Below are positions 1 to 59,960 of a stretch of DNA of 64,000 nt, in pieces. Below the pieces are notes generated by a model, which worked only from the letters and a program-made list of their open reading frames with translations, searched no databases and had not been told where the DNA came from. This DNA comes from Nannochloropsis salina CCMP1776 (lineage: Eukaryota; Sar; Eustigmatophyceae; Eustigmatales; Monodopsidaceae): the NCBI GenBank assembly GCA_004565275.1, contig SDOX01000009.1, forward strand, positions 763,175 to 827,174, written 5' to 3'. The position numbers were made by a program, and so were the translations under genes. Numbering within the stretch: position 1 is the stretch's first letter; every line of letters starts with the position of its first letter.

Positions 1-1470
1 GGAGAGAGAGAGGGGTCGTGGTCAAGGAGGGCACTCAAGGTAGAGGAAGGCGGCTGTAGCCACCGGACGTCTCCCCATACGTAGGCCCGGTATAGCTGTT
101 TATGCTTGACGCAAGGTCGGTGACGGTGTGTTGGTAGAGGGGTAGGAGAAAAAGAGGAGGAGGAGGAGGCAGAAGAGGAGAAGAAGAAGAAGAAGAAGAA
201 GAAGAAGAAGAAGAAGAAAGAGGAGGAGGAGGAGGAGGAGGAGGAGGAGGAGGAGGAGGAGGAGGTTGTGGTGCCAGAAGGAAGGGAAATGGCAACAACA
301 AGGAGGATAACAAGGGCTCCAAATCCATCGCGTGGAGAAGAGTAGGAAGACGTCGACGGAACATGGATGCACTTCGGTGAAAGACAAGACTTTGCTGTTG
401 AAAATGCCAAGGTCGAATCAAAATATTGCTGTTACTGAGAAGTGATGAACGGTGAATTGAACGACAAATGCAAGGATCCGCCGGTTTGAAAGCACAAGGC
501 TTCATCACATTCTTATGCCCAAAAGCTACAGTCCAATGATTACACATGGGAATCAAGAGCTGCGTTGATGGAAAATATCATGGCTGCTGACAAGTACATG
601 GGCCGACGTCAGTGAAGTGTGAGGATCACGCTCACCTCTTGTAATTCCCCTCTGATGATAGACCCGATTTCCACGTGTGATGCTAAACGCTGTTCGAGGA
701 GTCAATCTTGTGATCCGTAACAGGGAAAGCATTGGATCACTGATGGTCTGCCAGGGAAAAGTGAGCAAATTGGCAAGCTTCATCGGATGCAGTCATGACA
801 AGACCAATCTTCAGATACCGGTAATTTAATCCCCAAGAGCAAAAATTTCTCCCTGGCTCGTCGTAAATATGATTGATAAGGTAATTATGCATTTTTCAAC
901 CAAATTCAGGATTGCTGAAGACCAGAAGAGTATCCAATGCGTTATGTTTATGCAGATAATGGACATGGACTAGGCGAAATGACGATTCGCGCCAAAACCC
1001 CCGTGGCAGTAACCTTTGTCAAATTCATTCTTGCCCAAGCTATCATCCATATCAGTGGCAAATACACTCCGATCCATGAAAGTCCAATTACACAAATAGA
1101 ATCTTTTTAAGCATGCTCTCAAAAGCACTCGTGCCGCAATAATTCCACATTTTGCTTCGTTGTTTCCCCAGAGGGTTTGGACGTGGGGGGTCATATCGTC
1201 ATTCGCGCCAAATTTTCGTCAGGCGCCGCTAGCTCCCTGAGACGGCTGCCAAGCTTACTTTACTTTACGCCCGCGTTCAAAGCACACCCAACACTGCGAA
1301 CTCTGCCTTCCTTTGTTCATCTTCTCTATGGAATTCTTACATGTCAATGTACGCTGTCACAGGCCTTCTGGTCGGTGCTTTCCTTGGTGGTCGTAAGCCT
1401 GCCTGTTGCCTGAAGGACACGCGGAGAGATCCTCCAGCAGCCTTGGCTAGCCAGCCCCCTTCACGTAATC
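1..1470. other. Upstream region without a supported gene
   Basis: No reading frame here looks coding. The first 300 bases hold a purine triplet repeat that opens long but low-complexity frames on both strands. The rest is ordinary mixed sequence leading to the complex I gene. The 12-mer ATTCGCGCCAAA occurs twice (985-996 and 1201-1212). It resembles an E2F/DP binding site and could belong to the promoter of the gene that starts at 1471, but the 5' end of that transcript is unknown. Confidence 0.5.
128..265. repeat. GAA/GGA triplet repeat
   Basis: About 140 bases of almost pure purine: GAGGAGG runs, then about a dozen AAG/GAA triplets, then about a dozen GAG/GGA triplets. In one plus-strand frame it would encode Glu/Lys, in another Arg/Lys, and on the minus strand Pro, Ser or Leu runs. 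No flanking frame shows that it is coding, so it is called a simple repeat. Confidence 0.85.
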
Positions 1471-14323: not shown

Positions 14324-17300
14324 TCACCACCTCTTCACCTTCCCCTCCCTCCCTCCCTCCCTCCCTCCCTCCCTCCCACCTGGCCAGGCCACCCTCCCTT
14401 CCCAAGCCAGAAGCAACCACACCCCCGCCTCGATCATGTTCTTCACGTGGTATGGCTCATCCATTCCCGCCGGCATCCCCCATCCCACCACCAACAACAA
14501 CAGAACCCCCAGCCCTGCCTCCGCCCACCCCACGTCCCCGCTCCATCCCTCTCTTGATTTTTTCCCCCCTCGTCTACTCCTCCAAGCGAGGTCCGAGCCG
14601 CCGCAATGCTCGCAGGTGCATTGACAGAAAGAACAGAGGTCGTGGGGCACAGGGAGGGACGGGAAAAGGGAGGGAGAATGGTCTTGGTGGAGGGAACAGT
14701 CGCAAGAGAAGACGCGGAAGTCGGGTCCGAGGGAGGGAGGAAGGGGGGGAGGGAGGGAGACCGCTCCATGGTGGACAGGGGGGTCGCATTCCACATAGAG
14801 GGCTTGTGGACCGCCATCGGGGTGCACGCAGGAAGAGCAATGGCCGTGGAGGGGAGGTGGGGGGCGGGGGCGAAGGAGGGAGAGAAAGAGGGAGGGGGAG
14901 GGCGAGGGGGCGAAGCTGGTTTCTTTCCCGTACAAGGAGAAGAACAGGATTCGACTCAAATGGAGGACGTAAGGAAGGAGACGGAGGAGTGGGAAAGGAG
15001 GGGTATGGAAGATGGAAAGAGGGAGGAGGGAGGGCGGGAGGGCAGGGCAGCTGACGGCACGGAAGAAGGGAGCTAGGAGGATGTCCAGCTGGGAGACGAA
15101 CTCACCAAGGAGGAGGGGAGGGAGGGGCAGGTAGAGAAGGAGGAGGTGCACGGGCGAGCGGGGCGAGGATCGGTGGGTGTGGGCGAGCGAGGAGGAGATG
15201 GGGAGGAGGAGGAGGAGGAGGAGGAGGAGGAGGAGGAGAAGGAGGGCCGTGCAGAGGGAAAGGTAGAAAAAGGCGTGGATTTGTGCGGACAGAGAAGGAG
15301 GGGGGGAGGAAGGGGCGAGGGGAAGGAGGGAGGGCGGAATGGAGGCCGCGAGGTAGAAAGCCAGGCCTCCTGCGGTCAGGAGAGGAAGAGAGGGAGGACA
15401 AGAAGGAGGAAGAGAGGTGGAGGGAGGGAGGGGAGAGAGGGGGAGGGGGGGAGTTGGACCTCCCTTTTCCCTCTGCCTTCCTCTCCGCCAACCCCAAGCC
15501 GCCATGAATGCACAGCTAGGACGACCACCACTTTGCACCAAGGTGACGACGAACGAGAGAGAGCGGACCCAAAAACGGAGCACAAGGGGCCTTTCGCTCC
15601 CTCCTCCTCCTCCTCCCCCTCCTCCTCCTCCTCCTCCTCCTCCTCCTCCTCCTTCCCTCCATGCCTGGTACGTGTCCACGGCCAGGGCCCCGGTGAGAAG
15701 GAGGGGGAAGAGGGCGTGACGGACAAAGGGAAGGAAGGGAGCAGGGAAAACCGTGCGCAGAAAGCGTTCCAGCCCTGACCACAGGGAAGCCCTCTCACCT
15801 TCCCTCCGTTCTTCCGCGCTATCCTCCCTCCCCATCAGAGCCAGGCAGGCGATGGAGGTAATGGCCAACGTCACCCAGAGAGGAAAGGGGGCCAGGCGGT
15901 GTTCCACCAGAAGGCGGAAGGCCACGGCGCGAAACGCGGTCAGGAGGGAGGCAGGGAGGGAGGGAGGGGGGGAGGGAGGGAAGGAGGTCGGCCTTCCATT
16001 CGCGAGGAGGAAGGTGTGGAGGTGGGGGGCTTCTGCGGTGAGCCCGACGAAGGCGGGGGAGGAGGGGAGGGAGGGCGGGGCGGAGGAAGGAATGGAAGGA
16101 TCAAGGAGGTGGGCGGCCAGGGCGTTCAATTGCTCGGTGGGGGAGGAAGGCGGGATGGAGGGAGGGGCGGAGGAAGGGAGGGAGGCGATGAGGGACTTGG
16201 TAATAGAGGCAAGGAGCTGCCGGCACCAGAGGATGGCTAGATGATCGACGGCAAAGGCCACGTGCGGCATGGCCGTCGTTGTCAAGGCGAGGGAAGGCGG
16301 GGCGGAGGAAGGGGAGGAGGGCGGGAAGGAGGACAGGGAGGTCCATACCAGGGTGTCGCGGAAGCCGCCCGAGATGCTGACCTGTACGAAGGGTGTGGTT
16401 GAGGCAGGCGCGTCCTCGACCCCGCCCGCCCTCAATCCCTCCCTCGGTCCCTCCCTTTCCCTTGGCTGATTCTCGACATCGTCCGGTGACCCTTCGCGCC
16501 ATGCAGAGGCTTTCCCGGACATCCACGACCTCTCCTCTTCTTCCCTCCCTTCCTTGGCCGGGCACCTCCCATCATCCTTCTCCCCTTCCTCCCTCTCTTC
16601 CGTCGCCTGGCACCTTCCATCATCCTTCTCCTCTCCCTCCCTCTCTTCCTTCGTCGGGCACCTCCATTTCCCCCCTCTCGGGAAAAGACGAAGGGCCACA
16701 TTGAGCATCAGATGCAGCCCTTCCGTGGCGCGGCGCACCCCTACCCTCCAGCCCCCTCTGTTCCATGTCCGACGAGGAAGGCGAGGATGACGCTCCCCGG
16801 TATGATGGAAAAGGACCTCGTAGAACTCAGCCACGGAGGCCTCCAGGCCCCAGGGCGGGGCCCGATGGGGGCTTCCCAGCGTGACCAGCACGTCCTTCAT
16901 GCGGCTTTTTTCGTCCTTTCCGCCCTCCTCCAAGGCGAGCAAGAGCATACCCGCCTTGGCGACCAAGCCCCCATAGGAGTGCCCCACGACTATCACCCTC
17001 CTCCTCCCCTGGCCGCGTTGGGCGTGCCGTTTCCGCAACGTCCGGACCGCGTCCTTCACGAAGACTGCCTGACGCCACAGGGTCCGGCCGTGCAGTGCGC
17101 AGGCTTCTTTTTGGAAATCGACCGAGTAGTAATGCAATGTGTGGGAATTGATCGAGCGGTTGCTTCTGGGAAAGCCCGCCTCCTCAGTGCCCCTGGCGTC
17201 TGTCTCGCCGAGCCCAGCCGCCTTCATTCCCATCCCGCCCGATCCCCCCATCTCTTCCAATGGCCCTGCCTTTCCCTCCTTGCCCCTGTCTCCCTTATCC

Positions 17301-17890
17301 TCCTCCTTTGCCCCTACCCCTCCCTCCACCTCCTCCTCCCTCCCGCCCTCCACCTTCCCTTCCTGCCACACCTTGCCCGCACCCAATTGCGCCCCAAAAA
17401 AGCCCCGCTCCGAACCATTTCCACCCCCTCCTGCTTGCCTGTCCCCCCCGTCCCCGTCGTTCCATGCGCTCCTCTCCGCCTCCACTGCGTGTTGGTGCAA
17501 GGACCTTCCCTGCCGGTAGCTGCCTGCGTGGCCATGCACGAACAACACAGGCTGTCGCTCCCCCGGGTCCGCGTGCTCGATTTTTCGAAGCGACCACAAT
17601 CGGTACGCCCCCAAGTGGCCTCCAGTCCGCACACCATCTCCTTCCCCTTGTAAGGGAACCTCCGTGAACATGGGCCGGCTGTAGGTCATGCCGCAATGTT
17701 GGTGTGTCCGCTTTAGCGTCCATGTCACGTCCATCCACCCGACAAAGACGACGAGCCATGCCAGACAAAACCCCCACAGAGAGAGGCATCGACAAAATAA
17801 ATGCAGGACATGCACATGTCCTTTGAAGGAGGAACCGTGCGGGGGGTAAGCAGTAGGAGGAGGGGAGGAGCGAGAGGAGGAGGAAGGCAT
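14324..17890 (-). CDS. PGAP1: GPI inositol-deacylase, PGAP1/Bst1 type
   Basis: One uninterrupted frame of 1188 residues, although its neighbours are rich in introns. A hydrophobic anchor lies near residues 31-52. The lumenal lipase domain follows with VLFVHGHAGSYRQGRS, YSVDFQKEACALHGRTL, the nucleophile elbow VVGHSYGGLVAKAG (Ser near 300) and VTLGSPHRAPP. Farther on, TTTAMPHVAFAVDHLAILWC matches the conserved SADHLAxVWC-like region that carries the catalytic His. The C-terminal half has several Leu-rich membrane segments. PGAP1 removes the acyl chain from the inositol of GPI-anchored proteins in the ER, so they can leave for the Golgi. Low-complexity inserts (Gly/Glu, Pro/Ser, poly-Leu from CTC repeats) explain the extra length against the usual 920-1100. 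The last 30 residues are a GGREGG repeat like the starts of introns elsewhere in the window, so the C-terminus may be spliced differently. Confidence 0.87.
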   Translation of the reverse strand: MPSSSSRSSPPPTAYPPHGSSFKGHVHVLHLFCRCLSLWGFCLAWLVVFVGWMDVTWTLKRTHQHCGMTYSRPMFTEVPLQGEGDGVRTGGHLGAYRLWSLRKIEHADPGERQPVLFVHGHAGSYRQGRSLHQHAVEAERSAWNDGDGGDRQAGGGGNGSERGFFGAQLGAGKVWQEGKVEGGREEEVEGGVGAKEEDKGDRGKEGKAGPLEEMGGSGGMGMKAAGLGETDARGTEEAGFPRSNRSINSHTLHYYSVDFQKEACALHGRTLWRQAVFVKDAVRTLRKRHAQRGQGRRRVIVVGHSYGGLVAKAGMLLLALEEGGKDEKSRMKDVLVTLGSPHRAPPWGLEASVAEFYEVLFHHTGERHPRLPRRTWNRGGWRVGVRRATEGLHLMLNVALRLFPRGGKWRCPTKEEREGEEKDDGRCQATEEREEGEKDDGRCPAKEGREEEERSWMSGKASAWREGSPDDVENQPREREGPREGLRAGGVEDAPASTTPFVQVSISGGFRDTLVWTSLSSFPPSSPSSAPPSLALTTTAMPHVAFAVDHLAILWCRQLLASITKSLIASLPSSAPPSIPPSSPTEQLNALAAHLLDPSIPSSAPPSLPSSPAFVGLTAEAPHLHTFLLANGRPTSFPPSPPPSLPASLLTAFRAVAFRLLVEHRLAPFPLWVTLAITSIACLALMGREDSAEERREGERASLWSGLERFLRTVFPAPFLPFVRHALFPLLLTGALAVDTYQAWREGGGGGGGGGGGGGGGGGGSERPLVLRFWVRSLSFVVTLVQSGGRPSCAFMAAWGWRRGRQREKGGPTPPLPLSPLPPSTSLPPSCPPSLPLLTAGGLAFYLAASIPPSLLPLAPSSPPPSLSAQIHAFFYLSLCTALLLLLLLLLLLLLLPISSSLAHTHRSSPRSPVHLLLLYLPLPPLLLGEFVSQLDILLAPFFRAVSCPALPPSLLPLSIFHTPPFPLLRLLPYVLHLSRILFFSLYGKETSFAPSPSPSLFLSLLRPRPPPPLHGHCSSCVHPDGGPQALYVECDPPVHHGAVSLPPPLPPSLGPDFRVFSCDCSLHQDHSPSLFPSLPVPHDLCSFCQCTCEHCGGSDLAWRSRRGGKKSREGWSGDVGWAEAGLGVLLLLVVGWGMPAGMDEPYHVKNMIEAGVWLLLAWEGRVAWPGGREGGREGGREGKVKRW

Positions 17891-20941: not shown

Positions 20942-23350
20942 TCATTTACCCGTCTTCTCTTTCCCTCCCCCGACCTCCTTCTCGTCATCTGCTTCCTCCC
21001 CTCCCGCGTCCCTCACCCGACAAGCGACCAGAGCCAACACTGCTTCGGTTTCCACCAATACATCTTCCCAGCCTACTGGTTGCGAGAGACCTCCGCTCTT
21101 CCCTCCCATGAGTTTCCGGGCGTGAATGCTCATGCTGCCGCCGCCGCGGTCCCAGAGGCTGGCCGCGTACGAGCCAAGCATGTGTAAGCTTTCGCGCCAT
21201 TTTCGAAGGCGAGGTCGGCCTTGCACCCACTCCACCACCTCACAATGCCGGCTCTCCCCGCCCTTGCCCATGACCTCCGTCCCGCTCTCCTTCCTCCCCG
21301 CCCTCCTCGTCATTTCCTCCGCCTCCTCTCTCTCGGCCAGCAGGTAGTCGAAGCGGCGCATCCGTGCCGACAAGGACAGTCCCTCCTCCTTACTGTACCG
21401 CACCCCCACCCCTCTCCCTCTTCCTCCCTCAGACCCGACCTTCTCCCACACTTCCCCAAAGCGCGAGACCCCTGTTTGAGCCGCCAGCACCCCTATGTGC
21501 AGCTTCACCACCCTGTCCTTCCCCCCCCCCTCTCCCTCCCTCCCTCCATGTGTAATATAGACCGCGTCAGCGTGCGAGGAATTTGGCGCGAAAACGTGGG
21601 CATGGAAACGGGCCAGGCCCTCCCCTCCGGGGTAGTTCCGGCGGGCTGCGGCCAAGAAGAGAGGGAGGGGGAGCAGGCTGCTCGTGACCACCAGCCATCC
21701 CAACAGGGAAGCGTGACGAAGGAGGAATGACAGGGGCCGGGAGGAGGGGGAAGAGGGAAGGATCGCTTCCACGGCCGTCTCTCCTCCTTCCGGCTGCTTT
21801 GGCTGATGCTTCTCCCCACATGCCTTTCCTGCCTCTTGTGTCTCCGCCTCGACTCCCTCCTTCTTCCGTTTCCTTAACGACATCCTCGTTCTCCTCGACT
21901 CCACTCCAAGACCTGGTCTCCCTGCCTGGCCCATTCCCCCCCTCCGACCCCCCTCCCTTTCCTCCAATCGCGCCCACCCAATGGCTGCACACAAGTTCAA
22001 AACGGGCAAGGCAGGAAAGATGAAGCGCAGCTCCTTGTGTGGCAAGAAAGAGTACAGGGCGAGGTAGAGGGCCACGGGGAGGAAGAGGAGGAGGAGAGGC
22101 TCTAGGTCGAGGCGGAGGGGCTGGGGGAGGAAGGGGAGGGGGACGGAGACAGGGACACCTCGGTCCTTGTCTGCCTCGTCCAGACTTTCCCCTTTCGCCC
22201 CCTCGACTCCAGTGCCCCTCCTTTCCTTCCGTCTGACCAAGAGGCAGCATGGCCAAAGGAGGGGGGAGGTTAGGAGGGAGCGAGGGAGGGCGGAGGAGAC
22301 GTACCAATGCCAGGGGGAAGCGCCCCATTCGATGGATCTGTTCTCGACCGTATTAAAGAAGAGGACGACGCCCTCGGGCCAAAGCAAAGGGCATGCGGAG
22401 CTTTTCTCTTCCCTGCCTGCGCGCCAGAAGTACGAGTCGAGGAGGACGCTCAAGGCGATCCCTGCCCCGCCGAAAAGGGTGCCGAGGAGGAGGAGCTGGG
22501 ACAGCTTAAGGTGCCGGCGGAGGAGGAGAAGAAGGAGGAGGGGCAACGCCAGGACGATGACATCGCACCGGAAGAGGGCCGTGGCCCAGGCAAGGTAGAA
22601 GAGACAGCGGGTGGGGGCACGGTCCAGGAGGGAGGCATACGCAAGGAGGACGAAGCCTAGGGCGAAGGTGTTGGGCAGCGTCCGGGACAAATAGAAAGGG
22701 AGATGGAACTGGGAAAGGGTGAGGAGGAGGAGGCATTGCCCCGTGCGGGAACCGAAGCGCGAGGCGGCCGCTTGTCGGAAGCGGAGGAGAGCTACCCAGA
22801 GGAAGAGGCCTACAACGACGCGCACCCCAAGTTGGACCGGTAACTTGGTGGCGGGGCGGAGGGAGGGAGGGAGGACGTGGAGCACAAGGTGTAGGGGTAG
22901 GGCAAGAAGGAGGGGTCCCCAGAACGTGCGGGGGACGGCCCCGGGAAAGAACCGGTGATCGTACGCAGCGAGGGAGGAAGGGGGGAAGGCAGGAAGGAAG
23001 AGGATGTCATGGGTAGCCTGGGTGTTGAAGCTTTCTTCCACCTAGGACGGGGGAGGAGGGGTAGAGAAACATGATGGCGTTGGAAGAATGAAGGGTGAGG
23101 GAATGCAAAGTGAAGGGATATTGGGAGAGAAGGAAGTGGGGCCAAGGGCGAGAAAAATAAGGAGAGAAAGGAGTAGAGAAGGGAGAGGGCCTGCAATACG
23201 CCAGCACTCAGCCAGAATGATATATCGCACAACCAACCGGGTCCTTTTACGTCAATGTACCTTATTGTAGGGGCATAGCCAAATATAGGATAAAATGACG
23301 GCCAGCAGGAGCAGGTCTAAGAAGGTAATATTCCCAAGAAAACTTGCCAT
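20942..23350 (-). CDS. ALG12: ALG12 dolichyl-P-Man:Man7GlcNAc2 alpha-1,6-mannosyltransferase
   Basis: Exon 1 (23350-23261) encodes 30 residues with one membrane segment ending CPYNK. It joins in phase to exon 2 (23041-20942), which opens VEESFNTQATHDIL. The joined PYNKVEESFN is the GT22-family signature of the first lumenal loop. Other ALG12 marks are FFPGAVPRTFWGPL, SQFHLPFYLSRTLPNTFAL, ALFRCDVIVLAL, LDSYFWR, FFNTVENRSIEWGASPWHWY and YSFLPHKELRFIFP. The C-terminal part has NYPGGEGLARFH and VLAAQTGVSRFGE. The enzyme adds the eighth mannose to the lipid-linked oligosaccharide in the ER lumen, using dolichyl-phosphate-mannose. The frame gives 729 residues, longer than the human 488. A hydrophilic insertion and a charged C-terminal extension account for the difference, and the last 40 residues are low complexity and could be spliced otherwise. 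Confidence 0.93.
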
Positions 23351-38597: not shown

Positions 38598-41500
38598 ATG
38601 GTATCAGGAGCGTCGAAAAAGAAAAAGAAAAAGGCAGCAGCAGCCCTTTCCCTTGCTGGCCCGACCTCCTCCCTCCTTAAAGCCGTGTACACACGCCTAG
38701 CCAACACACTGCACGCTCAGTTTGGCCTTGTATTAGTACAAAACAAGGAAAAAGGGCGCTATTGTCGCGCTCCTCCGCAGGGTTTTGAGCCCGGTCGAGT
38801 GCTTTTGGAGGAAGAAGCTTACATGTAAGTGCTGACCGTCTCCGCAGAGTACCTTTATGGTCGATGGAACGAGCGAAGAGGCCATTAAAAAGATCCAACG
38901 CTCCCATTTACGATCCTATGTTTTGTTTGTGTATACACAAAAATTTGGGACCGAACAGACTGTCCACATTTTCCACATGTACAGATGGGGCAACGGGCAC
39001 GCGGAGTGGTGTTTGGAGTGCGACACTCCCAGTCATGCGAGCCCGGCCTGCCCTCGGATCCGTGCGAGCTATCCTCCTTCCATTGTTCCTTTGCTGCCCG
39101 CAATCGAAAATTGGATGATGGAGGACCTAGAGCGGGTACAGAGCTTGGACCGGGCCAGGGCGTGGATCAAGGTAATGGAGAAGGATGGGAGGAAAAGGAG
39201 GGAGCAAGGGAGGGAGGCAGGGAGGGATGAAAGGAAAGGAAGGCAGAGGAGGAGAATACGAGACGTGCATGGAGGTGCCTGGGTTCAGAGAAAAGCGTCA
39301 AACAGCGTCCTACGGGAAGCCATGGGGGAGCAGTCAAAATGGCGCGAAACAGGAACCTTGATGTAAGGCCCTCCCACCCACCACCACGACGCGACTCAGG
39401 CACTGATCCGCCTCCGTGCGGAAACGAAGGAGGGAATGGCAACGGCAGGGGAGAAAGAGAAAGAGGGCGGTGGATGGCTGGATCCGCTTTGGGCGTTGAC
39501 AGCTTGCAACCTCGAGCAGTGTCTGCAGGACGCGAGAAAATTGGCTCACAAGTGAGGGAGGGAGGGAGGGAGGGAGAGAGGGAGGGAGGGAGGGAGAGAG
39601 GGAGGGAAAGGGAAGCCAAGATAGAAAGGAAGGAGAGCCTATGCATGGATGGTGTATCCATTGATTTCATTCATGCATGCGCGTCTTTGCCTTTAATTCC
39701 CCTTCCTCGGTCTTCCTCCAGGTTCCCCCGCCTCCTACCCTCCCCTCCTTCCTCCCCCTCCTCCCCTTCCGCCGCCTCGATCGCTGTGGCCGGTCGCCTC
39801 CTTGCTCTGCTCAACACCAACTCGCATGAGCTTGAGGAGCTGGGCCCCGGTTCCGGCCTCTTCCTCCATGCCTGCCTTCTAGAACATTCCTGTCTGCCGA
39901 ACTGCGCCTTTGCGTGAGTCGTCTCCCCTCCCTTCCTCCCTCCTTTTTTCCCTCCTTTTTCCCCTCCCTCCCTCCTGTCCTGTCGTGCTCCCTCTCTGGT
40001 GCTCGTCTCTCGTTCTTTTGGCGCTTCACATGGCGCCTTGCTTGGGATCTGTCTTCTCCCCGCCCGCCCTCCCCCAATCACCGCGAGCCTCCCACTGATT
40101 TCCCCTCTTTGCAAATCCTCCCCACCCATTTCTTTACCCTGAATACAAGCACCTACGGGACCAAATTACGCTTGGTCTCTCTCACCGCCATCCCGCCCAA
40201 CGGCTCTCTCTCGATTGACTATGCCAATCTTTATTACTCCCCTGGTGCGAAGGGGGGGAGGGAGGGGGGGAGGGAGGGGGGAGGGAGGGGGGAGGGAGGG
40301 GGGAGGGAATGGGCCAGGAAACAGGGGAAGAAGGGAAAAAGAGGATGGGCAACAAAGACGTTCGTGCATGTGACCAGGTCGATTCCCTGCTCTCTTACCC
40401 TCAGTCGCCGCGCGACGGGCCCTCCTTCAGGAGTCCTACGGCTTTTTCTGTCAATGCGTGGCTTGCCAAGGCCAAGCGCCCGACCGGTCCCGTGCTTTTC
40501 GCTGCCCTGCCTCTCTTTCTCCACCGCTTCCTCCCTCCTCCCCCGCCTGCAGTCGCCCGGGTGCGAGGGCGGCGTAGTATGTCCCTTTGGGGACGAGGAG
40601 GAAGGGAGGGAGGGACGACCGCATGAGCCCAGCGTGCCGACGAGATGGCGGTGCCTGCGGTGCATGCGAGAAGCAAGTCCCACGGAGGTCCGTGGGAAGC
40701 CGGCCCCCCTCCCTCCCCCCCTCCCTCCCTCCCTTCCTGTCTCCCTCCCTTCATCCTCCCCCTCTTGTTCCTCTGGGTCGGTTTCGAAGTCGCTTGCTTC
40801 TTGGCTCGCACCGCTGAGAGACCTCCGCATAGCATCCGAGGTTTGCCTCCATTCCTATATCGCTGCTTCCATCCTCCGTCATCCAAGTGTTATCAAGGTC
40901 TTTATGTTCCTCTTTCTATATATTGGTAGATTGCGGCCTTCCAGGCGGCGGAAGAGGAGATTTTGGGAGCCGAGAGCGAGGACGAGGGCAGCGACGAGGA
41001 CGAAGAGAGAGGAGACAGGAGGAAGGAAGAAAAGGAGGAGGAGGAGGGGGAGGAAAAAGGCGGGAAGGAAGGGGAGAGGGTAGACGAGGGGAAAGTAGAG
41101 GCCGTGGAGGAGGAGAAAGTGGATTCCCTGTTGAGGACGCTGCCCTTGGTCCATCCGACCCACTTTGCGGTTTTGAATGCAGTGGAGGTGGGAGGGAGGG
41201 AGGGGGGGAAGGAGGGAGGGAGGGAGGGCACGACAGGGTTCGGAAGCACGAGAGGGGGCAAGGGGTGGAAGGAAAATGTGTCATTCGCCTCCTGCCCGTG
41301 TCCCTCAGCCCTTCCTTCTCCATCTTGTATAAGAGCACCGCCCACCGTCTGATACGAGACCCGTCTTCTCAGAGCGTGCGATATTGGGAGCGCGTCCTAA
41401 CTATTGTCAACGAAGGCCTCTCAGACCTGTACCCTCCTCCGGTGGGTGCTTAGAAGGAAGAAAGGGGGAGAGGAGGGAGGGGCGGAGGGAAGGCGAGGGA

Positions 41501-44500
41501 GGACGGAATTGACGGGATTGAAAACTTTGCTTACCTCCCGCTTATCCCGATTGTGCTCGGGATAGGGAGGAAAAGGATACGCACATCATCCAGAGCTCGC
41601 CATACTGCTGGATCGCGTCGCCCAGGTACCTCCTTCGCTCTTTATTTCCCTTTGGTACTTCCCTCCCTGCTTCCTGATCTTCCTCTTCTCATCTAATACA
41701 AAGACAACGTCCTTTCTCCTCCCACTCTACTGTCTTTCCTCTTCCACGTCTGGTCGCTGACATGGTCTGATCGCCCACCGCCTCCCTTCCTCCCTCCTTC
41801 CCACCCTCTTGTCCCCCATCCGCCCTTTCCTATCTAGGTGAAAGCCTCGGCAGGGGATACAGAGGGAGCCAGGCAATGCTGGGCCGCGGCCTATCAGTGC
41901 GCCTCTCTGCTGACAGGCCCGAACTGGGTCCCCACCATTGACTTACGCCGGTATGTTTCCCTCCATTCTCCTTGTATGTTTATCTCCATTCTCCTTGTAT
42001 GTTTCCCTCCATTCTCCTTGTATGTTTATCTCCATTCTCCTTGTATGTTTCCCTCCATTCTCCTTGTATGTTTATCTCCATTCTCCTTGTATGTTTCCCT
42101 CCATTCTCCTTGTATGTTTATCTCCATTCTCCTTGTATGTTTCCCTCCATTCTCCTTGTATGTTTCCCTCCATTCTCCTTGTATGTTTCCCTCCATTCTC
42201 CTTGTATGTTTCCCTCCATTCTCCTTGTATGTTTATCTCCATTCTCCTTGTATGTTTCCCTCCATTCTCCTTGTATGTTTCCCTCCATTCTCCTTGGGCA
42301 TGGATTGTTGAAGAACCTCGTATCATTAACCCCATTGTTGGCAGACGGGTACTCGCATTGATCCTCGTCCGTACAGCGCCAGGTTTTCTCTGCTTGTTCA
42401 TGGATGGGGCTGACTTCCTCCGCTTCCCTTTTCTGCCTGCTTCATGTTCCACGAATGGATCCGTGTCACTGCATGTATCGCGCACATACCTCCCTGGACA
42501 CATCTATCTCTTCTCTATTCCTCCCCCCCACCCCTCCTCACTCCCTTTCTCGTTCCCTCCTTTTCCCTTTCATTTCCCTTTCCTCCCCTCTAGCCTCGCG
42601 GAAGACCCACCTTCGACGAGAGAGGAAGTTCTCTCTTACTATAACGAGAGAGAGAAGATCCTGAACCAGATTTCCGACGACATGAAGGAGGAAAAGGTAA
42701 AGAGGAAAGAGAAGGAGCGAGGGGAGGAGTTAGGAAAAGAGAAATGTGTAGGATCTACGCTTTCTTTGTCAGAAAAACTGCCGAATTGGGCTCCAGAAAT
42801 AGAAGGCTCGGGAAAAGGCAGGAGAGCTCCAACGGTGGATGTTGCCAAGGCTTGTACAGCCTCCCGTCACAAGCTCAGTCGACCGACGCGTCATTCCATA
42901 CATTCTAACCTGTCTATCGTCCAATCAGATGGTGGGCAAACATAGTATTGAACTAGATTGGAAGGCATTGAAGGTGCGGCTTGGGAGCGAGGAAAGCCGG
43001 GGAGCGCTCGAGACCCAGGTGAGGATCTGGGATGGATAGAGGGGTGGGGAATGCGGGGTAGATTGAAAAGAATATGCAAAGGTGATCACCATCTCACCCT
43101 TGTTCGGGGCGCAATGGCCACATAATGATGAGCTTTCAAATTGACCTCCCTGTCTCGTCCTCCTTTCTACTTTCTCCCCTTCCCCATCACCCTACCTCCC
43201 TTTTGCTTGTAGGGGATGGTCATCCTTGACAATGCATTTGGAGAGACAGGCGCGAAGGCCATGCGAGAAGAGATCGTCTTTTTGGCTGAAAGAGGCTTGA
43301 TGACTCCAAATCAAACACGCTTTGGCCCGCATGAGGTGCGGTACGAGGAAGAGATAGGAAGAAGATGGAGGGGATGTATATATACATGTGTGCATGTCCG
43401 TATATATTCAATGACTTTGCATGGATATGCCGTATATTGATGTGTACACGCCTTCCATTTTCAAGCTGCACAACTCTCCTCTTGTATGTATATCACCTCT
43501 TACTCTGCGTATTTCCATCAGGTGTTTAGAAAGCCGTTCATATGGGAGGCGGACATGCACGACCCATTACTACGCGCAAGAGTCCCCATCTTAGGTGAGG
43601 AGGAAAGTGTTAAAGAGGGGAGATAGGCCGGCATTCCATGCAAAATTTCCTACTAAGCCTGGAAGACACGTGTAGACATGTCCGCTTCCATTTATTTTCC
43701 GTTCCTTTTGTTCCCTCCACAGCCTGTACCTTCCTATGCGGTCAGTCATTTGGCAAATTTAGCTCTGACTCTTCCTTTTTTTCTGCCTTTCTCTCATTTC
43801 CCATTCCCGCCTTCTCGGTACTTCTGCCTATTCATCAGGCTCCCTCCTGGAGCGGGAGGCTTTGACGGAAGGCCTGACGCCTGCCCTTCCCCCTGGCCTG
43901 GGAGGCCTGCGAAGAGGGATGAAAGGGCGGGCGCTCAAGGTCCAGCGAAATGGAGGAGGAGGGGGCAGTTTTGCGTGGCACTACGATAATCCAGGCAAAG
44001 GCAGTCAAAGAAGACTTACTTGCTTGCTATATTTAAACCCGGGATGGTAATGTTTGAGAGGGGGGAGGAAAGGAATAGGATGGGTAACAAGGAGTGACGA
44101 TGAAGAGCTCAGTGCTCAAGTATACACTCTGACACATCGCTATATCCAAGCGACCTCGACGTTCGTTGTTTCGAGATTCTTTGTCCCATACCCGAATAAC
44201 GCCTGACAACATGTCTGGATCGCACAATCGACACCTTTATCAATTCTATGCACCGCATCATCCCCTAGGTGTCAGGAGCATGGAGGGGAACTGGTCTTGC
44301 AGCCCTTTTTGGAGGGGTCTCCCACCGTGATAGCACCCTTGATGGACAGGATGGTCATTTTTCGGTCTGTCATACTCTCCTTCCCTCTTCCAATCGTCTG
44401 TCTTGCCCATCTTTCTCTCCACGATACCATTTTAAGTATTTTCTTTCTCAGAATCGTCTCTTTTGCCCCTGTAGCCTTTCCCCCATCCCGTGCACTATCA

Positions 44501-45516
44501 CTATTTCCCTTTTTATAAGTAGACCCGCCCCTCTCACTTTTCCAATCCCTGTCTAGGAGCGATGCTATGCTTCACCGCGTAATGCCTGCCCACCATGAGC
44601 GTTACTGTCTGACTGTTTGGCTCGACGGGGATCACAACGTTAATTCTGAACGAGATCTGCAGGTAAAACCAGTCCCCTCTGTCGTGACTTTTCGCCCTGT
44701 CTCTTTCCCTTGGTTTCCATCCAATGTGATCCTAGGTCCTCTCTCATTTCCCGCTTTCTTCTTTCTCACGTTTTCCTAAGTTCAGCTCCATTGTGAAACT
44801 TATTCCTCGTGTCAGTCAGAACAAAAAAGAGGGCAAGTTTTTATTTTAAAAAAAAGACTCTGGTTAGATACTTAAGTCTATTCTCACACCGTTCTTCACT
44901 CCGTTTCACACGGCAGCTCCGTTTCTCTTCCGCCGAAGCTGCCGACCCTGAAGTTCTGGCTCGAAAGCTTCGATTTTCTCCTTCTCAGCGCTTGGTGTCG
45001 CGTGCTGTCTATGCAGAGGAATACCAAAAAAGTTTGCGAGAGTGTATGGCGGGAGACACACCAGGTGAGGTGAAGAGGGGAGGGCAAAAATCAGTAGTAA
45101 GAGAATGAAAGCCATGATTTAATTTGGTTTCTTTGCTACGTATGCTTGGAGACTCATCCTCCACCACATTCTGTCAGAGGTGATAGGCTTTGACTGTTTC
45201 GTTTTCTTGTTTGGACTTATCAGCTCTATCCCCTCGTTGGGAAGCAAAGCAGTCTTAGGAGGGGAGAGAGGGAAAGAGAGAAGCTTGGTTAGTCGAACTA
45301 GATTCTCGCCATATCCTTTAGTTGCGTGGAATTTCTTTCGGGTCGGATAAGATTAACGCGAGTCTTCTCCAATCTTTGTAACTAGGTGCCAAAGAGATGC
45401 TGGCAGCCCATGACGATCACGTGCAGGCAGTCAAGCAGAATCCTGCCATGCAGGCGCTCGTGGAGACGTTGAGAAAACTAAAGAAAGGAGCGGGAGACGT
45501 AGGGATGAATATGTAG
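38598..45516 (+). CDS. SMYD-type SET methyltransferase fused to a 2-oxoglutarate/Fe(II) dioxygenase
   Basis: Twenty-one exons join in frame to 914 residues: 38598-38824, 38985-39171, 39400-39551, 39722-39913, 40150-40244, 40405-40493, 40553-40687, 40790-40840, 40930-41187, 41334-41441, 41566-41625, 41838-41950, 42594-42696, 42929-43018, 43213-43335, 43522-43594, 43839-44046, 44269-44364, 44557-44662, 44917-45064 and 45386-45516. The SET part has PGRVLLEEEAY, a short Cys module (CLECDTPSHASPACP), LLEHSCLPNCAF (about 240), ISIDY-like LSIDYANLYY and the post-SET YGFFCQCVACQ. Helical repeats follow. From residue 591 a dioxygenase domain follows with GMVILDNAFGE, the iron ligands in WHYDNPG (about 732) and LHRVMPA (about 793), and RYCLTVW, whose Arg should bind 2-oxoglutarate. 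This half resembles prolyl hydroxylases. No stop or promoter space separates the halves. Exons 40405-40493 and 40553-40687 need a GC-AG intron or a one-base change. An ATG at 38565 would add 11 residues. Confidence 0.78.
41951..42295 (+). repeat. 23-bp minisatellite, 15 units, filling an intron
   Basis: Fifteen head-to-tail units of exactly 23 bp fill the 5' part of an intron (41951-42593) of the SET-hydroxylase gene. There are two unit types, GTATGTTTCCCTCC or GTATGTTTATCTCC, each followed by ATTCTCCTT. The types alternate for the first eight units, then mostly the CCC type follows. Each unit begins with a donor-like GTATGT and continues with pyrimidines, and none contains AG. Confidence 0.97.
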
Positions 45517-54559: not shown

Positions 54560-55576
54560 TTAGGCCGTCGCGCACTTGCTCTCGAGCGCGGCGCGTGCTC
54601 CCGGGCATTTGGCATCCAATGCAGGGGCTCGGCTCTCGAGGTCCGTGACCTTGACGATGCGGTTCAACTCGCCAAAACAGCAGCTGCTGTAGTAATCGCA
54701 TTTCGTCTCCAAGTCGTCGGGCTTGGCCGCGATCTCCGCCATGACCAACTGGGCACAGAATTGACCGCCAGCGGATTTGGAGCACCCGAACTCGGCTACA
54801 AAGCCATCAAAGGTGACCGCCATGTCCTCGTCCTCATCCTCATCCTCGTCAACGTCGTCCATGGGAGTGAAGGTCGCCTTTTTGCTGTCGCACCAATTGC
54901 GCCATTCGGTCACGGCCTTGTCGAAGCTGGGCCCACAGGGGGTCGCGCAGAAGGCTTCCAACGCCTGGAGGACAAAAGAAAGGGGAGGTCAGGGGAGGTC
55001 AGAGGTGTGGATTAAGGGTGGAAAAAATGCCAGCCATGTCAACATTCTGAGGCAATCCTAGATTGGGAAAGCATGGCAGCTCATCATTTCCTGTCACAGA
55101 GTTTCAAATTTCCTCTTACAAGTTCTCGGCTTTCCACGTCCCTACCTTGACCTGGCCCGCCAGGGGCATCAGGTTGAACTCAGCGGTGCTGATGGTGTCC
55201 GAGAAAGTAGTCCATGCCGCCCCACATTTCGCGTCCTCTGCCAGAGCGTCGAGGCTGGCGTCCAACTCAGTCTGGGGCGGGTGAGCGGAAGGGATAGGGT
55301 ATTGACGAGGAAAGAGGATGCTTTTCATTGGGAAAGTTGTGCGACGAAGGATCCGACTGATACCGACTGTTCCTCTCGTACCATTCCACATTTTAAAAAG
55401 AGAAATTAAAGACACTTTCTGAGCATTTATTTTTCACTCACCGCATTGCATGAGCGCGCCACCATGGGAGTGGCAGCGGCTTGTAAGCCCCGAAGGGTAA
55501 GCGTCTCGGTGGCAGCAGCGCCGGCGGCAAACATAAGGAGGCTCATGGAGGCCATGTAGGACTTGTTGAAGAGCAT
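54560..55576 (-). CDS. Secreted Cys-rich protein, tandem paralogue 1
   Basis: Exons 55576-55442, 55271-55146 and 54964-54560 join in phase 0 to 221 residues. The signal peptide is MLFNKSYMASMSLLMFAAG, followed by ATETLTLRGLQ. Exon 2 encodes a helical segment with one Cys (EDAKCGAAWTTFSDTI). Exon 3 has ALEAFCATPCGPSFDKAV, WRNWCDSK, an Asp/Glu run, FDGFVAEFGCSKSAGG, CDYYSSCCFGELNRIV and KCPGARAALESKC. The family is not one I know, but the same exon plan, the lengths of exon 2 (126 bases) and the Cys positions return in the gene at 58338-59960. The two are paralogues in tandem. The protein should be exported or held in the cell wall; the even spacing of Cys suggests disulfides. Function is unknown. 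Confidence 0.83.
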
Positions 55577-58337
55577 GGTTGAAGAGGTTTTTTGAAAGGC
55601 TTGCTTTACGTGATTAGATGTGGTACAAACATGAATGAGTGTGTGATTGGGCTTTCAATTTAGGTAGTCATTTTTTGTACAACGGCGCACACATTTGTAA
55701 GGAATCTTGCGAATAATCCGATTATGAATCCCAAACATGAATTAAAACGGGGATCTGATGTGAGATCGGATACGGATACTACATAATAAAAAACTTGTAG
55801 CTTGTATGTTAGATCGATTTGTTCATCGTGACGAAGGATGCAAAGAGCTGAAGCTTATCCGAAACAAGAAATCATAAATAATGGGAAGCAAATGAAAATC
55901 CTACATGACGAACATGCACACAGCTCTGCAGCGTCCCTGACGAGATGTTGAACGTCCTTGTTCCGAGAGAATCCCCCTTGAATACCCGCCCAGATGTTGA
56001 ACATCTCTGTTCCTACTAAATTCCCCGCAAGTACCGGAGGAAGAGCTGTTCCGCTATATCACGCGGGACCAAAATATATTGTCAGAATCTTTGAAATCTT
56101 TTCGAGGAGTCATACAAACAATGAAAGGCTTTAAAAGTGTTGAACGTCTCACAAGGTTATGTAGTTATGGCTGGAAGTATCCAAACTTGACGACCTCCGC
56201 AGGGAAGCCCCCAATATTTTTGGGACTCGGTATAGCTCGTTAGAAAAACCTCAATCCGAAATCCCTATACGTAACTGGAGTATATCAGAAACAGCATTTG
56301 GTGACACATGAAAAAGGGTCCCGAAGGAGTTTCCAAGGAACGTTTCGCTCGTAATGCTCTGGTATTCGTGCTGTTTCATGTGCTCAGCGTTTGACGTCGG
56401 GGTAAACGTTCATTAAAGACAGCTTCCGTAAAGCACCGGCGGCGTGAGAAATCGATTTCTCCATGACTGTTTCTTCACTTTCACATGGCGGGGATAGCGT
56501 AGCTGGATCCTTTCGTGTGCTTCAATCGGGCGAGAAATATCATTTTTTGTAAAGGACAAGTGCCACCAGGGCCTACTCGTATACTCCACGCTCTATGAGA
56601 CCTTATCCTCACGCATGATACATGCACAATGACGACGTGTGAAGACAGCCTACCTTCAAAAACAGGTCCAAATCGATTAAATATGCTGAGCATCGCCCGC
56701 TTGCTGTTCTTTGTTGCCTGTGTCATGACATTATTTACGGTGAGTTTTAGAATGCTTGAAAAGGCATGCTGAGATCGATACCATGCGGGAGGAAGATTGA
56801 TGGCCTCAGCCATGTAAGATCAGCATGACCACTATTTCTGTCGCAATATCAACCCTCCTTACACCTGAGCACTCTGTCAAGAGTTATCATGCTATAAGCT
56901 TCCGAAAATTGAATAAATTCCACGCCGGCAGAAAAGGATATCTGACATACATTACTGTTGTGCCTATCTTCATAAATATAGACAAGCGCGGCCGGCTCCG
57001 CCCACGGACACCGCGAGCTGCGTGGTGGTTTTGCTGGGAATGTCCGTCGTAACAATCGCGCCGCCCGGGCGGAGATGCGGAGCGATGCCGGAGGGCGTCG
57101 CATGGAGACTGTGGAGGTCATGACAACAGGGGTCGTCCACCCCCATCGAGTCTTGCGTGGTGGATTTGCCGGAAACGTGCGTCGCAACAATCGCGCCGCC
57201 CGGGCTGAGATGCGGAGCGATGCCGGAGGGCGTCGTATCTGAGCGTCCTTATGAGTCGGTGAAGGGGAAAAAAAGACCGCGGCAATCCTTAGGTTCAAAC
57301 TTTTTTCACCTCAATGCCACTCAGAATGTGCTTAAGAAGATATATATGATGCATGGTTCTATACTATGGAAAAGTTTTTTTGACCGAGAGGTGTCGAAAT
57401 GACACGTATTGCCTTTACAAAAATTATGACGTGCACAAATTTGGACTCGAAACCTATGATTGGCTTTTCACTTGTGCAGAGAGGTGCTCTTGAAGAGTTG
57501 TGGAAGTTGTAGTTTGCGGCGTAGAGTTCCACGTGAATACTACTAAACATATGCACAGAAGAAGAAAATCTCGACGATGTGAACATCTTCAATCACCAGA
57601 CCGTATGTTGGAGACTGCCTTCCTATGTTCAATTCCTTCGGCACCCTTCACAACTCCTGGTACCCGACTGACATTGCTCTCGGCAAGGGGTGTGGAGAAA
57701 AAGTAGTAGGTAAAAACCATTTTCTGTGGATGAGAGTGATTGTCTGCATGCGCGGTGTGCTGCTTGCCTCATCTTTAACGACACGTCCAAATCTCAACCC
57801 AAAAAAAAGAGAAAAAACAAATAGACTAATCTTCCTCGCTCAAAGCTTCCGCACATTCTCCTTTTAAATTTTAAGAGCACCATTCTTCCCGTAAAGTCCT
57901 TCACTTCGCCTACTGTGGTTCTCTAAGCACACATAACCTGAACCTTCCTTATGCAGCCTTGCAGCCTGTCTTCCAGTTTCTCTGACATCTTACATTCTCT
58001 CATTAGTACGATATCCTCTTCTCCATTCCCTTTCTGTCACCTCGTGTATTGCCCTCGCGCTATATATGCATCACCTCTACCAACAACCTCGATGCCCTCC
58101 TTCGCTCCCTCCGCGTCCTCAACCGGACACCTTTCCGACACCTTCCAAGAAAATTCCAAGAACGTTCCAGCTTCACACCTCCATTTCATGCAATCCATCT
58201 TCCTCGCTATCCATCTTCCAAGCAAGCAAGAGAGGCCAAGAACACACCCATGCGTCCTCGTCTGCACCTCCTTGTCGTCGACCTCTGTACAGTATAGCCA
58301 GCCTCAGCGTGAGGCGCTACTCTTTGTCCCTTTCTTC
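55577..58337. other. Spacer between the tandem paralogues
   Basis: Apart from the coding-like repeat at 56982-57242, I see no gene in these 2.8 kb. An imperfect direct repeat starting AGATGTTGAACGTCC and AGATGTTGAACATCT lies near 55940 and 55992. The parts 55680-55910 and 57250-57420 are AT-rich. Confidence 0.5.
56982..57242 (+). other. Coding-like frame with a 27-codon repeat, gene unassigned
   Basis: After an ATATAG that could be an acceptor, the plus strand stays open for 86 codons to a TGA. It holds two copies of a 27-codon unit, RGGFAGNVRRNNRAARAE followed by MRSDAGGRR (57021-57101 and 57156-57236), separated by 18 codons. The copies differ at eight bases. In this frame every difference is a synonymous third-base change, the mark of selection on a protein. 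The reverse strand is also open but one of its changes is not silent (Lys/Asn). No ATG starts the frame, so it would be a terminal exon or a relic. The peptide is Arg-rich and not recognised. Confidence 0.45.
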
Positions 58338-59960
58338 TTAGGCACACTTTGTCGTTAAGGCCGCCGTCGTGCCCGGGCATTTTGCTTCCAGCATGGCTGC
58401 ATGCGCCTTTAGGTCTGTCAGGGTCACCAACCGATGCATTTCTCCAAAGCAGCAGCTTGTGTAGTAGGCGCAGCGCGTGGCCGTGTCTTCGGGTTTCGCC
58501 ATCAATTGGTCCATGACCAGTTTCGCGCAATATTCTCCGTTGGGACCCGCCGACTTGGTGCACCCGAAGTTGGAGACGAATCCGTCGAAAGAGTACATGC
58601 CTCCCATACCCCCGCTGAGCGGCACAAACGACGCTCGGTTCAGGTCGCACCAGGTGCGCCAGTCGGTGATGGCTTTGTTGAAAAGCGGACCGCAAGGGGT
58701 CTGGCAGAATGTATCAAGAGCCTAAGCGTAAGGAGAGAAGACAGGCGGGAAGGGGGGTCAGTACATGGAAGGCAGGAAAGGCTCTTAGTCTTTTCGACCG
58801 GTGGAGCGGAGGGAAGACAATCAAGGAAGGGGATGAGGTTCGGTGTCTTCCAAAGGCCGGCGATCCACCGTTATCAAGTCCATCCCGCGCATGCAGGTCG
58901 ATGGCCGCCTTTTTCCTCTCCCTCTTTTCCCTTACCACCCCTACTGTGCACACATCAAGGGCGGTGCCTCTTATGCCTTCTCTTGCCTCATTTTCATCCT
59001 TCTCTTTTGGCTAGACAACACCATGATGACCACATTCCCGATTTCCGTATCTCCTCGCAGTTAGCCTACCTTGACTTGATCCGGAAGCGGCAACCCACTG
59101 AAGTTCTCTCCCTCCAGCGTGGTGGAGAAGGTGGTCATGGGGGCTTGACATTGAGGTACCGTAGTCAAGGCGATCAGGCTTTGATCCAGCATGGTCTGTG
59201 GACGTGGAGGTGGTGATAAGTGTGATGAACCAAAAGACAAAGTAGTTTCCTCCGGACAAAAGGTGCCCTCCCTCCCCCCTGGGAAAAGCTACCAGGCATT
59301 AAATGCTTAAGACCCGTATCAACATTGACCATGCCCCGCATGTCTGTCTGCAGAGACTTCGGACAGACACACATCTATGCAACCCTTTGGCGGCGACGCA
59401 TCGGTCGTACAGGCACTTACCATGTTGCACAAGGCCGATACCAGAGGTACGGGACGCGTCGCCTGCCCCGCACCAGCTTGTGCTCCCGGTTGCTGCATGC
59501 CCGGTTGCTGCATGCCCGGTTGCTGCATGCCCGGTTGCTGCATGCCTGGTTGCTGCATGCCTGGTTGTTGCATGCCTGGTTGCTGCATGCCTGGTTGCTG
59601 CATGCCTGGTTGTTGCATGCCCGGTCTATTCATCCCATTTTGGCCCATCCCGCCCGCGCCTGCTCCCCCTGCGTTGGCCATGCCTCCGTTTGCTTGTTGG
59701 CCCCCGTTGTACTGTTGAGAAGCTCCAGATTGCTGTGCCTGGCCCATTCCACCGGGTGCATTACCAGGTGCCACACCTTGGACACCGGCAGCCTGCTGGG
59801 TTCCGCTCGCTTGTTGCAATGTGGCTTGCTGCGGTACTCCAGCCCCTTGGGTGACTCCAGGTGCTTGCAAGCCTCGCAGGATATTCTTCTCTATAGCAGT
59901 GCCACGTGCAGCAAACATCGCAAGGCTCAAAAGAGCCATGGCGCTTTTCCGGTACAGCAT
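58338..59960 (-). CDS. Secreted Cys-rich protein with PGMQQ repeats, tandem paralogue 2
   Basis: Exons 59960-59421, 59195-59070 and 58721-58338 join in phase 0 to 349 residues. The signal peptide is MLYRKSAMALLSLAMFAARG, followed by TAIEKNILRGLQ, close to the start of paralogue 1. Exon 1 is extended by a Gln/Gly/Ala-rich region and nine PGMQQ pentapeptides. Exons 2 and 3 match paralogue 1: exon 2 is again 126 bases and ends LPDQVK. Exon 3 has FCQTPCGPLFNKAITDW, WCDLNRASF, FDGFVSNFGCTKSAGP, CAYYTSCCFGEMHRLV and KCPGTTAALTTKC. Cys positions are shared throughout. The repeat region may be flexible or adhesive in the wall or mucilage; this is inference. The gene lies upstream of its paralogue on the same strand, so it arose by tandem duplication followed by repeat expansion (or loss in the other). 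Confidence 0.83.
59488..59625 (-). repeat. 15-bp tandem repeat coding PGMQQ
   Basis: About nine copies of a 15-bp unit (plus strand GGTTGCTGCATGCCC or GGTTGCTGCATGCCT, one or two with TTG) encode PGMQQ on the minus strand within exon 1 of the second Cys-rich gene. The unit keeps frame. Confidence 0.95.

Follow-up and report, generated by a model that had tools for sequence, protein, structure and literature searches.

A predicted gene of Nannochloropsis salina that may fuse a decayed SMYD-type module to a PHD/EGLN-type prolyl hydroxylase

The locus at positions 38598-45516 (+) of the window analysed here, a 64,000-nt stretch (C93:763175-827174) of the 26.5-Mb, 103-contig genome of Nannochloropsis salina, raises the question of whether a SMYD-like part and the prolyl hydroxylase that directly follows it are made as one protein or belong to two genes. 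We consider it an evenly balanced proposition that one transcription unit would make a single fused chain of about 912 residues, composed of a decayed SMYD module and a PHD hydroxylase (Table 1).

Table 1. Features of the gene model in window coordinates or protein positions.
Feature	Position	Strand	Basis or remark
SMYD-like half, exons 1-13, residues 1-582	38598..42696	+	Pfam, SMYD and paralogue alignments
Worn MYND	C85, C88, C98	+	alignment with paralogues
Exons 4-5, SET C-terminal half, EHSC for NHSC	39722..40244	+	comparison with the genome's SMYD-like loci
SET C-terminal part	residues 239-277	+	Pfam match
Exons 6-7, post-SET	40405..40687	+	homology suggests removing 40509-40552 (GC..AG, 44 bp); exact join uncertain
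Post-SET CxCxxC	C300, C302, C305	+	alignment with paralogues
Acidic insert	exon 9	+	
TPR-like helices	exons 10-12	+	weak support
Intron 12, 643 bp, longest in model	41951..42593	+	15 copies of a 23-bp repeat
Exon 13, linker AEDPPSTREEVLSYYNEREKILNQISDDMKEEK	42594..42696	+	in-frame coding score of +7.7 bits
Linker helix	exon 13	+	by eye
Junction intron 13, 232 bp	42697..42928	+	donor AAG/GTAAAG, acceptor AATCAG/ATG
Prolyl hydroxylase half, exons 14-22, residues 583-912	42929..45516	+	Pfam and 6iuq alignment

The gene model was built by reading frames from the sequence and then joining exons, which gave 22 exons in frame and an open reading frame of 2739 nt (912 aa) that runs from the ATG at 38598 to the TAG at 45514-45516, is continuous once spliced and contains a single, terminal stop. 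The in-frame chain described in the initial annotation does exist, with its counts of 21 exons, 2745 nt and 914 aa corrected to these values. A hexamer model whose training set comprised 49 ORFs lying outside 38-46 kb ranks the modelled frame best of three in 21 of the 22 exons, with exons 16, 17, and 21 slightly below zero. This training set included one highly repetitive ORF in locus L041, a 959-aa open frame (L041:7124-10000, minus strand) that is mostly repetitive (64% of its 12-mers occur more than once) and runs off the end of the locus. Retraining on 48 of the 49 ORFs again placed 21 of 22 exons best in the modelled frame and left exon 17 alone below zero; the conclusions on exons are unchanged, and the exons of the model are real. 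The 18-nt exon at 43723-43740 can be skipped with the frame kept. Between exons 6 and 7, the homology-guided join 40508/40553 has no GT donor, and 13 alternative GT-AG joins would preserve the frame at the cost of lost or changed residues at this point; given these joins, a candidate frame break of the SET half (40509-40552) was not upheld. The genome also contains 34 matches to the light-harvesting family PF00504, and many introns, which very probably mark it as that of a photosynthetic eukaryote.

The second half of the model matches PF13640 with E 3e-19 in the full model (6e-20 when the 330-residue half is searched alone) and aligns with a 345-residue chain deposited as 'Prolyl 4-hydroxylase' (PDB 6iuq; E 5e-72) at 46% identity over 317 aligned residues, spanning positions 4-320 of the half and 10-326 of the chain. 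Residues H731, D733, H791, and R800 of the full model (H149, D151, H209, and R218 of the half) have identical counterparts in 6iuq and presumably serve as the HxD...H triad and the 2-oxoglutarate-binding arginine. The half thus contains the 2OG-Fe(II) domain with HxD...H and R that characterizes the PHD/EGLN type, and EGLN2 and EGLN1 are matched over about 85-110 residues with E values of 1e-15 to 1e-10. By these alignments, exons 14-22 are predicted to encode a prolyl hydroxylase of the EGLN/PHD type that has kept its catalytic residues, and the original description of an Fe(II)/2-oxoglutarate dioxygenase resembling prolyl hydroxylases is borne out. The algal half and 6iuq have in common both the HxD...H...R set and a C-terminal extension, whereas the deposited chain, native length aside, is too short to include a SET part. 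EGLN1 and EGLN2 (PHD2 and PHD1, the HIF prolyl hydroxylases) share the catalytic core; unlike the algal model, in which a SET-TPR-like part precedes the hydroxylase, EGLN1 has a MYND finger in that place. Searched against its own genome, the half matched only its own exons (8 of 8 matches, E up to 0.1), and seven other PF13640 loci are present.

The first half is related to SMYD proteins, but in a worn form. The match to SMYD2 and SMYD3 covers residues 216-314 (E 3e-8 to 8e-8), and alignment with three paralogues shows G53-R54, H244-S245-C246, P248-N249, Y277, and the post-SET cysteines C300, C302, and C305 to be invariant. Of the two domains named in the initial annotation (SET and 2OG-FeII_Oxy), the hydroxylase was recovered as above, but SET reached only 18.5 bits in the full model (19.0 with the half alone) against a cut-off of 22.4, in a match that covers the C-terminal part of the domain only. 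The proposed SMYD-like SET domain with helical repeats is right in outline, by the SMYD2/SMYD3 match and the post-SET cysteines; for the repeats there is a weak TPR_12 match (E 0.1) that does not reach the cut-off of the family. A SET domain split by a MYND finger, as in SMYD proteins, was not found: no MYND match appeared among Pfam families up to E 1, and C85, C88, and C98 alone of the finger align with the three paralogues. Nor is the NHSC motif present, the residue before H244 being E, where N occupies this position in all four SMYD-like loci compared, out of a genome with 13 SET matches. The N of NHSC contacts SAM. The algal half resembles SMYD2 and SMYD3 in its SET C-terminal half and post-SET cysteines, and differs in its three aligned MYND cysteines, its EHSC and, in the model, the attached hydroxylase. 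The four loci compared (L033-L036, on contigs C70, C56, and C72) are matched by the first half over the SET and post-SET regions with E values of 3e-12 to 2e-4, differ in having kept the N, and include a 515-aa ORF (L034) that, by eye, ends without a hydroxylase motif. We infer from these substitutions that methyltransferase activity of the first half would be weak or absent, which makes it doubtful. The coupling of methylation and hydroxylation on one chain that had been suggested is further weakened by EHSC and the reduced MYND finger.

Whether the two halves are joined depends on intron 13, whose splicing we infer from sequence signals. The join of exon 13 to position 42929 is in phase 0 in the spliced model, as originally stated; the donor scores 6.4 and the acceptor 4.5, and a branch-point-like CTAAC starts 24 bp before the intron end. 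Window-wide, 4.6% of 3068 GTs and 9.1% of 4121 AGs score as high, with scores that are partly circular because they were derived from about 20 introns of the same gene. Of 1851 other ATGs on both strands of the window, 121 (6.5%) have a donor-acceptor chain that is in phase and no worse than this one, 14 have a good acceptor exactly at the ATG and 3 combine the two; the junction is therefore better than chance, yet not decisive. Also in favour of a fusion, intron 13 has a negative hexamer score in all three frames (-7.3, -31.2, and -19.7 bits; -4.9, -29.4, and -17.8 bits after retraining). On the other side, it is open in the upstream frame up to a TAG at 42943-42945, 14 bases past the ATG at 42929. 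It is the longest of the 6 introns, out of 21, that have no read-through stop, and its read-through frame scores -0.06 per codon, sixth from the top of the 21 and more coding-like than all eight introns downstream of it (-0.38 or lower), a mild sign against a plain intron. The one-chain reading of the initial annotation is in keeping with the open spliced frame and the phase of the junction, but two-gene layouts remain.

That the locus comprises two tandem genes, in which a SMYD-like gene would end in or near 41951-42945 and a prolyl hydroxylase gene would start at the ATG at 42929 or at an in-frame ATG at 42682 in exon 13, is a real possibility, though not the reading we favour. Candidate ends of the first gene are intron 12, an alternative terminal exon at 42773-42802 and the TAG at 42943-42945. 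Two acceptors within intron 13 (42873 at 6.2 and 42772 at 5.5) outscore the modelled one, and the latter leads to the stop at 42800-42802 that would close the alternative exon; the frame of exon 14 is open upstream to this same TAG, with an extra ATG at 42839. Since the 6iuq alignment begins at the fourth residue of exon 14, the ATG at 42929 is placed as the start of a stand-alone enzyme would be; in a fusion, this agreement would have to be coincidental or due to the retention of an ancestral start codon. Against two genes stand the C at -3 of this ATG, where a purine is preferred by a general rule that may not be this organism's, the coding score of exon 13, and the splice-site-like, in-phase ends of intron 13. 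Spacing bears on both sides. Among 46 neighbouring strong-ORF pairs in 238 kb, the smallest gaps are 366 bp for convergent pairs (n=12, including one of 530 bp with the repetitive L041 ORF that does not set the minimum) and 333 bp for divergent pairs (n=14); a boundary at intron 13 would have at most 232 bp, less than any of these 26 gaps, which argues for fusion. The tandem pairs (n=20) include gaps of 150 and 285 bp. We discount the 150-bp gap (L050), which probably represents an intron within a single gene, with no Pfam match for either piece; the 285-bp gap separates, on one strand, a GTPase with a KH domain that ends in a stop codon from an ELP6 match, which are therefore two genes by family, if the ATG of the second start is taken correctly. 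By comparison with this pair, 232 bp is tight but near the spacing that two genes manage in this genome. Intron 12 could serve as an alternative gene boundary, for which its length would be ample. The exclusion of two genes for want of promoter space, as argued in the initial annotation, consequently fails on the 285-bp tandem pair, the 643 bp of intron 12, the alternative exon and the start of the 6iuq alignment.

An improbable further arrangement is that of one mRNA with two proteins or mixed isoforms, in which intron 13 would sometimes be kept and spliced copies would give the fusion. In copies with the intron, the first ORF would stop at the TAG at 42943-42945 and overlap the second by 17 bases, an ATG...TAG overlap (42929-42945) that is consistent with such an arrangement. 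Nuclear mRNAs with two ORFs are described for green algae (PMC11892635), a precedent from a group that may not be the host's. That source attributes translation of the second ORF to leaky scanning, with few AUGs ahead of it (PMC11892635), whereas the first ORF here is 1746 nt long and contains 18 ATGs in any frame.

As an observation apart from the gene boundary, the 5' part of intron 12 (41951-42296) is filled by fifteen 23-bp tandem copies of GTATGTTTCCCTCCATTCTCCTT; the array begins at the intron 12 donor, and the consensus copy therefore repeats the donor-like GTATGT. Elsewhere in the window, a long ORF at 14333-17767 (minus strand) has a PGAP1-like match (PF07819, 3e-39) and another at 20945-23041 (minus strand) an Alg9-like mannosyltransferase match (PF03901, 2.5e-45), with a 688-aa reading between them that has no Pfam match. 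Both families are tied to GPI-anchor or glycan assembly. Two seemingly related sets of cysteine-containing reading-frame pieces lie at 54563-55579 and 58356-59960 (minus strand), with a hydrophobic N-terminus followed by LRGLQ and, in one set, many GMQQP repeats; the piece at 54563-54973 has no Pfam match. A repeated peptide containing LRGGFAGNVRRNNRAARAEMRSDAGG is found at 56988-57230.

The same architecture was sought in sequence collections and in the literature. Searches with the hydroxylase half confirmed no relative in viral contigs (1 pattern match, not upheld), and none was confirmed in genome contigs (45 pattern matches, none upheld) or in viral contigs by two-sequence alignment (46 pattern matches, none upheld). 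No fusion was found in phages by tblastn, where 2 of 50,697 records matched, both of them Acinetobacter phage MD-2021a and over 25% of the hydroxylase half. By description these collections hold viruses, bacteria, and archaea, and the misses therefore say little about algae. A SET/SMYD-prolyl hydroxylase architecture is unreported in the titles and abstract openings of the matches listed by a narrow search in which subscription journals are mostly missing; similarly narrow searches found no paper on 6IUQ or on EGLN-like structures in stramenopiles and, for gene spacing in Nannochloropsis, no paper with that name.

Under the favoured reading of one fused chain, the fusion would most likely have arisen through transcription across two neighbouring genes, with the last donor of the first gene becoming joined to an acceptor immediately ahead of the second gene's start codon. 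The N-terminal part would derive from a SMYD-type protein through decay of its MYND finger and of the cofactor motif of SET; because of this decay, a substrate-binding or scaffold role, provided by the SET remnant, the post-SET cysteines and the TPR-like helices, is more likely than that of an active methyltransferase. The C-terminal part would act as a prolyl hydroxylase of the PHD/EGLN type, dependent on Fe(II), O2, and 2-oxoglutarate, and the SMYD-derived module may present substrates to it. A self-targeting enzyme of this kind, in which the module selects the substrates of the O2-dependent hydroxylase or still methylates them, is a rather doubtful proposal. In protists, oxygen responses involve PHD-type enzymes, and Toxoplasma PHYb affects translation elongation (PMC6437050); given the latter effect, a translation protein would be a reasonable guess for the substrate. 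If the two parts are not fused, the locus is a useful example of an in-phase splice that makes two tandem genes look like one. If they are truly fused, a SMYD-derived targeting module would be built into an O2-dependent hydroxylase, and the substrates of algal PHD-type enzymes could be approached directly through it.
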